DNA of 32,121 nucleotides from Gemmatimonadota bacterium. Its GTDB lineage: Bacteria > Gemmatimonadota > Gemmatimonadetes > Gemmatimonadales > GWC2-71-9. Under the pieces are notes generated by a model. The model saw only the letters and a program-made list of their open reading frames with translations. It was not told the DNA's origin and did not search any database. This document shows, piece after piece, positions 26,580 through 30,651 of this stretch; the first letter of the stretch is position 1, and each line of letters opens with the position of its first letter. The stretch is taken from NCBI GenBank assembly GCA_020346845.1, contig CP070792.1, positions 2,322,704-2,354,824 of the forward strand. Direction: 5' to 3'. Made by a program: the position numbers and the translations under genes.

Positions 26580-27121
26580 GTTAGCAGCCAGACCACGCAT
26601 GCCACACCGGGCGCCACAACTAGATTGTCGTCGCACGGACCGGGCCACCGTTCCAGAGCGGTCCCGATGACTGCCCCAACCACCACCGCTTGCCAGGGCA
26701 GGCCTAACAGTGTCAGAACCACCACAGAAGTGCCTAACGCAGCCAGACTCCCTATCACCGTCTTGCCCACTGAATCGGCACTCAATCCACCCACCATTGA
26801 TGCAGCAGGATCAGCGGACGCACTCACCAAGATCCCTGCAGCGGGAGCAATGGGCGGGAACCAGGCAGAAAGCGCGTAGCCCAAGCTGAGCCAGGTCGCA
26901 CCGCTCAGTCGGCGGGCCTCCATGTCCCTGAAAACGGGGACCATTTCCACGATCCGTCGACCCACATTGGGCAGCCCAATCCGGGCAAGATCGAGGGCAA
27001 CGGCTATCGCTGCTAGGATGCCCAGGGCTAATCTGAGAAGATCCCAACTTGCCCAGAGAGGGATCAGCAGAACCACGGCCGAGCCAACGTGGAGCAGACG
27101 TCGGAGTGGGGGCCCTCTCAT
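26576..27121 (-). CDS. Polyprenol/phytol kinase-like CTP-dependent membrane protein (CdsA-related)
   Basis: This is a 181-residue hydrophobic protein with about five to six helices. The N-terminus MRGPPLRRLLHVGSAVVLL has the R(R/K)xxH start seen in phytol and dolichol kinases. EARRLSGATWLSLGYAL (about 68-84), SASADPAASMVGG (about 100-112) and GKTVIGSLAALGTS (about 118-131) match the conserved part of the SEC59/DGK1/phosphatidate cytidylyltransferase superfamily. It probably phosphorylates a lipid alcohol, perhaps a polyprenol or diacylglycerol. Its ATG overlaps the transglycosylase stop by four bases, so a link to envelope lipid-carrier recycling is plausible but inferred. Confidence 0.78.
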   Translation of the reverse strand: MRGPPLRRLLHVGSAVVLLIPLWASWDLLRLALGILAAIAVALDLARIGLPNVGRRIVEMVPVFRDMEARRLSGATWLSLGYALSAWFPPIAPAAGILVSASADPAASMVGGLSADSVGKTVIGSLAALGTSVVVLTLLGLPWQAVVVGAVIGTALERWPGPCDDNLVVAPGVACVVWLLT

Positions 27122-29367
27122 GGCGTCCCCGCCGCCTGCAGCTCCGCGGGAGGATAGAGTGCCTTGTACAGGGCGCGATTGCGGATCACAGTGCGCAAAT
27201 AGCCCTGCGTCTCCGGATACGGAACTTGCGCCACGAACTGTACCGGATCATCGGAGTTGGGATACCGGAGCCAACGTCTCACGGGTGTTCCACCCGCGTT
27301 GTAAGCGGCCAGCGCGAGCTCTACCCGCCCATCGTAGCGTTCGAGTAGGCTTGCGAGATGAACCGCACCCAGATGCAGGTTCGCATCCGCCACGACGAGA
27401 AGACGTCTGTCCCAGCCCATTCCCTGCCTCTGCGCCAACTGTCGGGCGGTTGGAGGCATGAGCTGCATCAGTCCATATGCACCTGCATGTGACACTACCG
27501 AAGCACGGAAACTGGACTCCTGCCTGATGAGGGCAGCAAGCAAATAGGGATCGAGCCCATGCGCTCTTGACTCCTCCTCAATCATTTCTCTCAAGGGCCA
27601 CGGGAAGATCACGCGAAGCACGCGCGGATGATTCAGCGTATAGGCTCGAGTTGCCCGCCACCCCAACCTGATACCCTCCGCCACAAGCCCTCGTTCGATC
27701 AAGCCTTCGGCGTAATCCAGCAACTCGGCAGGTGGGCGCGTCTGCTCGGACATGATGTGCTCGACAAGTGCCTCCGCCTCCGCCTCGTAGCGCACATCCC
27801 TCAAGAGGTCGAGGACCAGGAACTCGTGCGGAAGGGCCCGCGGCTCGGGTGGGGAAGACGGTGATGCAACGTTGAGCGGAGGCAGCCCCGATTCCTGTCT
27901 CGCGATGGTGCCGTAGTAGCCGACCGAATCAGCGCGAGCGAGCACAGCCAGGATGCCGCGGCGCTCCAGTGCGTCGCTAGTCAGCGACGCCACCTGGTAT
28001 TGCGCCGCAAACCGCTGGGCGCCACCCAACTCGACCTCGTCGCTGTACCACCCAATGGCCCCAGCAGTATCACCCCTGGCCAGTGCATTGGACGCAAGCT
28101 TCAGCCTAGCCCGTGATGCATATGAGCTCCGTGGCCACCGCTGGGACAGGGTCATCCGGACCGAGTCCGCCGCCACCGTCTGTCGCGCTCTTGCGAATCC
28201 GTCGGCCACGAGGTGCAGCGCAACAGGAGCATTCGGGTCCTGCGGAAAGCTGTCAGCAAAAGCAGTTAGGGCAGCCCTGGCTTCCGCTGTGCGTCTCATC
28301 CGAACAAACAGGCGACCGTACTTATACGCGGCACTCCTGGCGGCCGCTCCCTCGAATGACGCCGCGCGACGGTAGACTTCAAGTGCTTGAGTTCGAGACC
28401 CGGTGATCTCGAGCAGGTCCGCCCAATAGACAAGTGCGTCTACATCCGTGGAATCGGAGGCCACTGCACGGCCAGCTGCATCCAGTCCTTCTCTCGTAGA
28501 GCCGATTCGACGATATGCACGCGCCAGCTCCCGAAGTTCGGTCGAGGTTCTGGGCCCATGCAACTGCGACAGCAACCCGACGGCCAACCGGACCACCGCC
28601 GTGTCTGAGTCACTCAGAGCTTCATTTGCCAGCTCACGGGCGCTCACGCTATCTGCCCGGGCTAGCGCTAATGTCGCCGCGCGCGCTGGCAATCCCACTT
28701 GGGTGAACGCATCAACTGCTGCGGAGGTGTCAGCAGCCGCCAGCTTGATTTCAGCCTGGGCTTCTAGGCTCAGGCGCGACGCGGCTGCCGGGGCAAGGCT
28801 CAACAGCTCCATTGCTCGTGCCGAATCGGGCGTCACACGTGCTTCGCGAACGGCGAGCCACCCTTTGAGTTCGGGCAATTCCGTTGCCGCCCAGGCATAT
28901 CGATCGGCTGCCACATCAGTGCGACCTGAGCGCTCGTAACTGTCTGCAGCGCGGGCTAGCATCACACCGCGAGGTTGGCCCTTGAGATGGAGCGCAGCTT
29001 CATCGAATAGGGCTGCCGCCATCTCGAAGGCACCCAGCTGATAATCGGCGTCGCCCAATAGGGGGGTGGTGATCTCTGCCGGCCACAGCGCCGTGGTGGA
29101 GCCTCTAGTCAGAAGCTCGCGGGCTCGCTCGGGCCTCCCGATCGCGAGTTCGAGCACTGCCAATCGTAGAATGACCGCCGGACCGGCCGAGTCACCTGCC
29201 AGAAGCCCTCTCAGCCGCTGCACCTCGTGCCACCGAGCCGAATCCGCTTCCAAGCTATGCGTGCCCTGAGCCGACATCTGGCCTGCGCCGCCGCTCCAAA
29301 GAACGACGGTCAAGACGGCAAGGCTGACACTCTTGGCCACATGCGTCATCCGCGGCAGTCCACGCAT
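27118..29367 (-). CDS. Soluble lytic murein transglycosylase with N-terminal repeat domain
   Basis: The 749-residue protein starts with a signal peptide (MTHVAKSVSLAVLTVVLW, cleaved near GQMSAQG). It is followed by roughly 550 residues of alanine-rich helical TPR-like repeats and a C-terminal SLT domain. Catalytic E617 is in IRQESSFRASVVS, followed by GAYGLMQLMPPTA and LALAAYNAG, the standard Slt70 family motifs. It cleaves peptidoglycan glycan strands with anhydro-muramic acid formation in the periplasm. The start is ATG 29367 or ATG 29349 (residue 7); neither has a clear Shine-Dalgarno, and a cryptic short frame ends just upstream. The kinase-like gene downstream is coupled by ATGA. Confidence 0.93.
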   Translation of the reverse strand: MRGLPRMTHVAKSVSLAVLTVVLWSGGAGQMSAQGTHSLEADSARWHEVQRLRGLLAGDSAGPAVILRLAVLELAIGRPERARELLTRGSTTALWPAEITTPLLGDADYQLGAFEMAAALFDEAALHLKGQPRGVMLARAADSYERSGRTDVAADRYAWAATELPELKGWLAVREARVTPDSARAMELLSLAPAAASRLSLEAQAEIKLAAADTSAAVDAFTQVGLPARAATLALARADSVSARELANEALSDSDTAVVRLAVGLLSQLHGPRTSTELRELARAYRRIGSTREGLDAAGRAVASDSTDVDALVYWADLLEITGSRTQALEVYRRAASFEGAAARSAAYKYGRLFVRMRRTAEARAALTAFADSFPQDPNAPVALHLVADGFARARQTVAADSVRMTLSQRWPRSSYASRARLKLASNALARGDTAGAIGWYSDEVELGGAQRFAAQYQVASLTSDALERRGILAVLARADSVGYYGTIARQESGLPPLNVASPSSPPEPRALPHEFLVLDLLRDVRYEAEAEALVEHIMSEQTRPPAELLDYAEGLIERGLVAEGIRLGWRATRAYTLNHPRVLRVIFPWPLREMIEEESRAHGLDPYLLAALIRQESSFRASVVSHAGAYGLMQLMPPTARQLAQRQGMGWDRRLLVVADANLHLGAVHLASLLERYDGRVELALAAYNAGGTPVRRWLRYPNSDDPVQFVAQVPYPETQGYLRTVIRNRALYKALYPPAELQAAGTP

Positions 29368-29369
29368 TC

Positions 29370-29426
29370 TCAGCTAGCGAGCCTGCGGGAATACGCGGAC
29401 GTTGTTGTAGATCGGATTGGCACCAC
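29370..29426 (-). CDS. Possible 18-codon leader reading frame upstream of the transglycosylase
   Basis: A GTG at 29426 follows GGAGGTGATC (29436-29427), a ten-base perfect complement of the usual 16S rRNA 3' tail, with 5 bases between GGAGG and GTG. The frame would encode 18 residues (MVPIRSTTTSAYSRRLAS) and stop 2 bases before the transglycosylase ATG, allowing coupled translation. It is too short to judge by content, and a competing frame exists over the same bases. Confidence 0.3.
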   Translation of the reverse strand: MVPIRSTTTSAYSRRLAS

Positions 29427-29547
29427 GATCACCTCCGTTTTCCCGGCTTGTTGAGAATTGACTGCCCCCGCGGCATGACCGCAGCACCTTCTTTGGGTAT
29501 GTGCCGCAGCTAACACAAGCAGGGACCGCGCCAGCTAACAGCGTCGC
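29374..29547 (-). pseudogene. Short lipoprotein-like reading frame without a start codon
   Basis: This minus-strand frame is open for 57 codons and stops with TAG 6 bases before the transglycosylase start. It begins IATLLAGAVPACVSCGTYPKK, which resembles the end of a lipoprotein signal, and ends GANPIYNNVRVFPQAR, which looks like real protein. No ATG, GTG or TTG lies in frame between the upstream TGA and the lipobox-like part; a GTG at 29487 is the only internal start. A nearby out-of-frame ATG (MNRDAV) hints at a frameshift. It may be a decayed small lipoprotein gene. Confidence 0.3.
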
Positions 29548-29684
29548 GATTCATATCGCTCGTAGATCATATGTGCTATGGAAGCCGCACAGCGCGGACC
29601 AGGATCACCAAAAACGGCGGTACTGCAAACCCGCCTGAAGCCCCCAGTCTGCGCCATACGTTCGGTGGATACTTAGTGCTCGAC
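29548..29684. other. Remainder of the divergent intergenic region before the kinase gene
   Basis: Together with the two cryptic frames above, the transglycosylase-kinase gap spans 357 bases. In this right part I see no gene, tRNA, repeat or strong hairpin, only the kinase promoter candidate at its right edge. Confidence 0.35.
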
Positions 29685-29714
29685 TTGCCCGCGTTCAAGT
29701 GTGGCTATTACATT
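29685..29714 (+). promoter_or_regulatory. Candidate promoter of the kinase-pyrE operon
   Basis: TTGCCC (29685-29690) and TACATT (29709-29714) each match their consensus at four of six positions and are 18 bases apart. The -10 ends 10 bases before the kinase ATG, giving a leader of only a few bases, consistent with the lack of a Shine-Dalgarno. Confidence 0.4.
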
Positions 29715-29724
29715 CGGCGACTCT

Positions 29725-30651
29725 ATGCCGAACGAAGATCTCACTGGCCGCAGCATTGCGGGCTACAAGTTAATGTCCCGCATGGGCGAAGGCGGGACAG
29801 CGACCGTGTACCGTGCCGAGCATCCCGAACACGGACGGTGTGCCGTCAAAATCCTCAAGCAACGGACCCGAAACGACCCGATCGCGGTCAAGCGGTTTCT
29901 TCGGGAGGCCGGCTACGGTGCCAAGGTTAAGCACTCATCTGTGGTGTGCACTTATGACTTTGGGGAAGAAGACGGAATTGATTACCTGGCTCTCGAGTGG
30001 GTAGACGGAGAACCGCTTGGCGAGTTCGTGAATCGTTCCGGGCCGTTGGCGCCGGTGCTCGCATCTCACATCGTCACACAATTGGCCGAGGGTTTGGGCG
30101 CTGCACATGCGGTGGGGATAATACACCGCGATCTGAAGCCCGAGAACATCGTGTACGACCACCAGACTCAGACCGCCAAGCTGCTGGATTTCGGCATCGC
30201 GCGGGACGCCCAGGAGGCAGCCTCAGACCGTCTGACCAGAACCGGGTTTTTTGTGGGTACGCTGCAGTATGTAGCGCCCGAAGCCCTTTCCGGCGAACTA
30301 GTGGGAGAGAAGGCAGACATCTTCAGCTTGGCCAAGATCACTTATTTCCTGCTAACAGGTACCCAGCCACACCCAGGCCGCTCACCGCGGGAAGTGTTTC
30401 ACCAGCTACTGACCCAACCGCCAATCCCCTTGAACGAGGCAGTCAAGGATCTGCGGTTCCCGGCAGAACTCGAAGCGGCAGTCATGAAAGGTCTGGAGCG
30501 TCAGCCCGACGACCGGCACGCAACTGTTCAGGAGTTTGCCGCACATGTTGCACGCGGTGTCGAGGCCGTCGACGAACCGGCCCCTCAGAAGGGACGCGGC
30601 TTTTTCGGCACCATCAAATCCTTGGTAAAAGGCAGAGACGAGACGAAGTAG
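29725..30651 (+). CDS. Cytosolic Hanks-type serine/threonine protein kinase
   Basis: From ATG 29725 the protein has 308 residues. It holds one kinase domain: glycine loop MGEGGTATVY (about 20-29), catalytic lysine K42 in CAVKIL, HRDLKPEN with D136, LLDFGIA with D155, and YVAPEAL for the APE motif. The domain ends near residue 280 and a short basic tail (RGFFGTIKSLVKGRDETK) follows. There is no transmembrane helix or PASTA-type sensor, so it is cytosolic. A GTG at 29701 would add 8 residues, but the promoter placement favours the ATG. It leads a probable operon with pyrE. Confidence 0.93.
   Translation: MPNEDLTGRSIAGYKLMSRMGEGGTATVYRAEHPEHGRCAVKILKQRTRNDPIAVKRFLREAGYGAKVKHSSVVCTYDFGEEDGIDYLALEWVDGEPLGEFVNRSGPLAPVLASHIVTQLAEGLGAAHAVGIIHRDLKPENIVYDHQTQTAKLLDFGIARDAQEAASDRLTRTGFFVGTLQYVAPEALSGELVGEKADIFSLAKITYFLLTGTQPHPGRSPREVFHQLLTQPPIPLNEAVKDLRFPAELEAAVMKGLERQPDDRHATVQEFAAHVARGVEAVDEPAPQKGRGFFGTIKSLVKGRDETK

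Follow-up and report, generated by a model that had tools for sequence, protein, structure and literature searches.

Probable loss of a GWxTD lipoprotein gene and a candidate coupling mini-cistron upstream of a lytic transglycosylase gene in a Gemmatimonadota bacterium

As judged from synteny and a kinase tree, a Gemmatimonadota bacterium (hereafter G000) has very probably lost a large GWxTD lipoprotein gene that in many relatives lies between a divergent kinase gene and a gene for a lytic transglycosylase (LT). In its place we found a leader that contains a strong Shine-Dalgarno (SD) sequence and an 18-codon mini-ORF ending at the LT start. The best functional reading of this mini-ORF is that of a stand-in translational coupler, a reading that concerns a single genome and an SD sequence that is hidden in the predicted fold. 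For the account as a whole, gene loss together with coupling through the mini-ORF, we put the probability at about 40%. The window referred to below is the entire stretch of 32,121 nt that was analyzed (contig CP070792.1).

On the minus strand the locus consists of the start of the kinase gene (read in reverse), a promoter-like element (TTGAAC-17 nt-TAAGTA, 29698 to 29670), a stretch of about 300 nt with no clear gene, and the LT gene. The LT gene (27118 to 29367, minus strand) encodes an SLT domain (PF01464, 97.5 bits), and the divergent Ser/Thr kinase gene (29701 to 30651, plus strand; PF00069, 154.4 bits) is 85% identical to its counterpart in the relative G002. The kinase start is probably ATG 29725 rather than GTG 29701, which almost touches the promoter-like element on the opposite strand. 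Between the element and LT lies the 298-nt leader (29665 to 29368, minus strand), which from our reading of the same gap in 17 genomes occupies the position of the relatives' lipoprotein gene. The sequence-only reading had placed within it a 10-nt SD sequence, GGAGGTGATC (29436 to 29427, minus strand), followed by an 18-codon GTG frame, VVPIRSTTTSAYSRRLAS plus TGA (29426 to 29370, minus strand), and both were confirmed at those positions, with 2 nt between the TGA and LT ATG 29367. This GTG frame, our candidate coupling mini-cistron, extends mechanically upstream to GTG 29516, giving 48 aa. An alternative LT start, ATG 29349, would lie 21 nt rather than 2 nt from the mini-ORF stop.

The evidence for gene loss comes from the gap between kinase and LT in related genomes. 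Kinase matches were present in all 61 genomes (paralogues counted) and LT matches in 57 of the 61 including this one, some of them only distant SLT proteins; from these match lists we picked by eye 17 genomes, counting this one, that have kinase and LT side by side. A large lipoprotein gene occupies the gap in 13 of the 17 (G002, G007, G008, G012, G013, G017, G021, G023, G025, G026, G028, G032 and G035). These gaps span 1.4–1.6 kb and contain one open frame of 455–488 codons from stop to stop, which is alignable across all 13 genomes and whose N-terminus, as we read the sequence, looks like a lipoprotein signal. The proteins at the gap position in G002, G008 and G025 matched PF20094 (GWxTD_dom) above the cut-off, and the GWxTD assignment of the other ten rests on alignment. 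The gap is short, 153–337 nt, in the remaining four genomes (G000, G018, G020 and G031). In G020 a similar GWxTD gene is found downstream of LT instead (L073, G020:C1:1026997-1028364). A second genome of the same genus, G001, is uninformative because it is 63% complete and its LT contig ends within the gene.

When named genomes were scanned with the LT protein as the only query, no relative was confirmed. With an alignment as query, 80 loci were kept, mostly distant SLT proteins, and the sole close relative among them (L074, Gemmatimonadota bacterium isolate 13_May_SF_Bin78; 44% identity) has translated frames that appear to show this arrangement of kinase, lipoprotein and LT. A Ser/Thr kinase divergent from a GWxTD lipoprotein and then an SLT transglycosylase is thus a neighbourhood that recurs in the family (L051, L006, L008, L011–L018, L056, L059, L063 and L074).

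No match to the lipoprotein gene was found in G000 by protein search at E values up to 1, nor was there any PF20094 match. Thus, the presence of the gap gene in relatives including the sister genome, together with its not being found here, indicates that the gene was probably lost. The sister relationship comes from a tree of kinase sequences from 16 of the 17 genomes (the G017 kinase was absent from the set), in which G000 and G002 pair with 100/100 support. On this tree the gap-gene trait needs three changes, and 8 of the 13 inner forks are open. From a sister pair by itself loss is not distinguishable from gain, and the tree alone leaves room for other histories; loss in the G000 lineage is simplest because G002 and 12 other genomes carry homologous genes at this position. 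The G000 assembly is a single contig of 3.17 Mb that scores 69% complete, and same-genus G002 is 5.5 Mb and 93% complete; genome reduction or lineage-specific marker loss is possible.

Another explanation would be an assembly indel that broke a small gene at the gap, as the sequence-only reading had suggested, and the completeness score of 69% for a single-contig genome might be taken in its favour. However, nothing that we found calls for an indel. None of the 17 genomes has a small gene in the gap, the reading frames of the flanking kinase and LT are open throughout, and a local indel would not explain why the gap is shorter here than in G002 by about 1.1 kb. We consider this explanation highly improbable.

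We also asked whether any part of the lost gene survives in the leader. An open frame of 58 codons (29550 to 29374, minus strand; stop TAG) had been taken for the tail of a decayed small lipoprotein gene, with an LLAG signal-like stretch, no start codon before that stretch and a stop 6 nt ahead of the LT ATG. This description of the frame holds. A lipoprotein gene is indeed missing by comparison with 13 of the 17 genomes, but that gene is large (about 460 codons, GWxTD) and the LLAG frame is not a demonstrable relic of it. The frame is in LT's own frame, separated from it by the TAG stop, and its first ATG, GTG or TTG is at codon 22 (GTG 29487), after the LLAG stretch. Its length is ordinary, as 1497 of 2000 shuffles were equally long. 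With no start ahead, chance length and no HMM support, we rejected it as an intact or decayed lipoprotein gene, and it is probably not a gene.

We considered specifically that the LLAG frame could be what remains, after decay, of the N-terminus of the lost GWxTD lipoprotein, with its signal peptide and lipobox. Its position between the promoter-like element and LT is right, and its VPACVSC aligns with VPACASW at the G002 lipobox, an alignment score reached by 16 of 419 null frames; this value is weak because the frame was one of four tried. When the full G002 protein was used, 83 of 419 null frames reached the score of the LLAG frame. The frame lacks a start codon, and the distance from the promoter-like element to its Cys is about 80 nt greater than in G002. 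The frames of the gap scored below zero bits with the family HMM, and no gap frame was among the 21 matches listed for the N-terminal HMM, all of which were null frames. A 40-aa frame at 29657 was matched by 29 of 419 null frames against the full G002 protein, and the remaining gap frames were at chance against G002. As a possible GWxTD C-terminus, the ends of both the 48-aa frame and the LLAG frame were rejected, being at chance with a C-terminal profile (325/946 and 195/946 null, respectively). When the DNA of the gap was aligned with the G002 gene, 416 of 500 shuffles scored as high for the whole gap and 108, 298, 261 and 363 of 500 for its 5′ parts, all at chance level; the 3′ part was marginal (25/500). 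An N-terminal relic is improbable, and the lipobox similarity is a weak hint. We conclude that the lipoprotein intuition was grounded in synteny, yet on present comparisons no gap frame is demonstrably a relic of the lipoprotein gene and the LLAG frame cannot be called a remnant.

The promoter-like element appears to have been retained. The block from the kinase start through TTGAAC-17-TAAGTA is identical to G002 at 109 of 136 positions. The 17-nt spacing with TAAG was present in 5 of the 17 genomes (G000, G002, G020, G031 and G035), and a TTGA..GCAAG core in 12 of the 17. Because a sigma-70 scan did not flag the element, we infer that it is a promoter from its position and conservation. It probably served the lipoprotein gene as promoter before that gene was lost, and now stands in front of LT, where it would drive transcription. 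In G020 and G031 the corresponding element is followed closely by candidate LT starts. The element at 29670–29704, TAA(C/T)..TTGA..GCAAGT, between the kinase gene and the lipoprotein or LT gene, is found more broadly than its −10-like part. It seems to enclose the lipoprotein start in some relatives (CAAGTGA), and it may serve the kinase too.

The SD sequence of the mini-ORF pairs perfectly with the 16S tail. The RF00177 match to the genome's own 16S 3′ end (L038) stops 3 nt past GATCACCTCC, and the 10-nt match is thus to the genome's own ribosome. The predicted SD duplex is −20.1 kcal/mol before GTG 29426 and −21.8 kcal/mol before a second GTG at 29423, which is also well placed for GGAGGTGATC. 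These are the strongest values in a comparison with 22 gene starts in the window, picked mechanically with genes of unclear start left out, and the alternates that were tested; the best gene, an ABC permease, reached −18.3 kcal/mol. The LT gene has −2.7 kcal/mol before ATG 29367 and −4.4 kcal/mol before ATG 29349, such that the mini-ORF contains no second SD sequence for LT. The mini-ORF stop sits where the stop of the lost lipoprotein gene would be.

We estimated how readily such an arrangement would arise by chance. GGAGGTGATC occurs once in the window against 0.06 expected. In dinucleotide shuffles of the 298-nt gap a run of at least 10 nt appeared in 1 of 2000, and a run of at least 9 nt together with a suitably spaced start appeared in 4 of 2000. 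The mini-ORF stop fell no more than 6 nt from the LT ATG in 203 of 5000 shuffled tails. These shuffle odds are post hoc because the site was chosen out of 32 kb.

These estimates bear on an explanation that shares the gene loss and differs in what was left behind, namely that the SD sequence and mini-ORF are a chance leftover and that LT starts alone at 29367 or 29349, as do window genes with weak SD sequences. Several gene starts in the window have SD duplexes of −5 kcal/mol or weaker, and the post hoc choice of the site takes force from the shuffle values. Predicted folds at three lengths left the SD sequence and GTG mostly paired. Moreover, the leader is not conserved: among 102 family genomes searched, this one included, the other 101 gave no convincing counterpart, and 19 of them gave only short matches of 18–35 nt (best E value 0.0037, in one genome). 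Lack of conservation in relatives had been named in the sequence-only reading as refuting its own interpretation and is what we observed in the 101 other family genomes, although the test is a weak one because most relatives with a readable gap have a different gene there. Conversely, the rarity of an SD sequence with a fitting start in shuffled leaders and the position of the stop speak against a chance leftover, as does the stop-start geometry that relatives share. We regard a chance leftover as a serious possibility, somewhat short of an even bet.

The sequence GGAGGTGATC was also examined genome-wide. With 18 sites (L033–L050) it is over-represented, the reversed control having 3. Seven sites fall within open frames of at least 209 codons, where they are read GAG-GTG-ATC (Glu-Val-Ile), and one is antisense to the 16S end. 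From our reading of the listing, the leader site is the only one of the 18 that is both outside an open frame of at least 200 codons and followed by a fitting start. As none of the 17 other sites is outside such a frame with a fitting start, the idea that GGAGGTGATC is the usual SD sequence of this genome was rejected, and its excess does not look like SD usage.

The junction between lipoprotein and LT genes in relatives provided a further line of evidence for coupling. Stop/start junctions were readable in 12 relatives, the G007 piece being too short. In seven of the 12 (G012, G013, G017, G021, G026, G028 and G035) the lipoprotein stop and a candidate LT start share 4 nt, and in G032 they share 1 nt. 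The nearest candidate start relative to the lipoprotein stop is at −11 in G002, +3 in G008 and −14 in G023, and G025 has none nearer than +26. At the eight overlapping junctions, where the starts are candidates by position, SD duplexes calculated with the 16S tail of G000 ranged from −3.3 to −9.0 kcal/mol. Overlap of this kind is the geometry of translational coupling, as far as predicted starts and stops can tell. The mini-ORF stop 2 nt before the LT ATG indicates that this geometry persists in G000 with a very short upstream cistron. In G018, where the gap gene is absent, the duplex before a candidate LT start is −15.0 kcal/mol; this genome may have met the same problem differently, by a strong SD sequence on LT itself. 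The junction geometry of the relatives, the position of the mini-ORF stop and the starts in G018, G020 and G031 together favour the stand-in-coupler reading.

Our proposed history is as follows. In an ancestor the kinase gene would have diverged from a GWxTD lipoprotein gene followed by LT, with LT translation coupled to the end of the lipoprotein gene. The lipoprotein gene would then have been lost and the promoter-like element kept, such that LT would be transcribed through a leader of about 300 nt. A near-perfect SD sequence in this leader would open the 18-codon frame ending 2 nt before the LT ATG. Ribosomes would load at the mini-ORF, terminate and restart on LT, and the mini-ORF would thereby stand in for the lost upstream cistron. 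The peptide encoded by the mini-ORF need have no function of its own. Against coupling are that the leader is known from one genome, that the SD sequence and GTG are mostly paired in predicted folds, that the leader folds no better than many of its shuffles, that there is no second SD sequence and that the LT start is uncertain.

The sequence-only reading had proposed that a leader peptide controls translation of LT. One part of this proposal survives, in that a translated mini-ORF may couple ribosomes to LT, but we obtained no support for a regulatory peptide. An attenuation-type leader would be suggested by a short frame with a strong SD sequence directly upstream of LT. However, no terminator-like site was found on the minus strand between 29200 and 29800, and the window contained no Rfam match. 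Folding of the leader is unremarkable (z −0.71; 22 of 100 shuffles folded equally well). Together with the lack of conservation, these results make attenuation control of LT very unlikely.

Our literature searches found no paper on GWxTD and none linking Shine-Dalgarno sequences, leader peptides and lytic transglycosylases; for lytic transglycosylases of Gemmatimonadota nothing on topic was found, as judged from the listing. The closest parallel is the engineered bicistronic design (BCD), credited to Mutalik et al. 2013, which the available portion of a later paper describes as a first SD sequence, a leader cistron of 17 aa, a stop at the target start and a second SD sequence (PMC5995908). By that description the G000 leader resembles BCD in its strong first SD sequence, in the size of the leader cistron (18 codons here) and, if LT starts at 29367, in a leader-cistron stop that adjoins the main-gene start in another frame. 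In contrast, BCD as described there has a second SD sequence inside the leader cistron, whereas the LT start has −2.7 kcal/mol, and because a second SD sequence is absent we do not class the locus as BCD. The mini-ORF also differs in being natural and seen in one genome, with coupling that is putative. A second parallel is short-distance termination-reinitiation; reinitiation is frequent in prokaryotes according to the available part of a review (PMC5972666). The 2 nt between stop and next start conform to the process as outlined in that part. The difference is that the upstream cistron here is a mini-ORF without known product that replaces a long one. Finally, the locus has the same position, a similar promoter-like element and the same downstream gene as the GWxTD (PF20094) locus of relatives, but the gene was not found here and no relic is demonstrable. 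We therefore regard it as a candidate coupling leader of natural origin and group it with neither BCD nor regulatory leader peptides. That LT has evolved a natural BCD-like leader, in which a strong SD sequence and a product-less 18-codon cistron replace the ribosome loading of a gene of about 460 codons, seems less likely than not.

Most likely the locus shows a known type of arrangement in modestly remodelled form, and the biology here is probably gene loss with a leftover that is possibly functional. If coupling is true, an operon would have kept its downstream gene translated after losing the coupled upstream gene, with a layout much like that chosen by engineers; if it is false, an ordinary gene loss has been documented. 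The recurring kinase, GWxTD lipoprotein and transglycosylase neighbourhood may serve specialists more than the leader itself.
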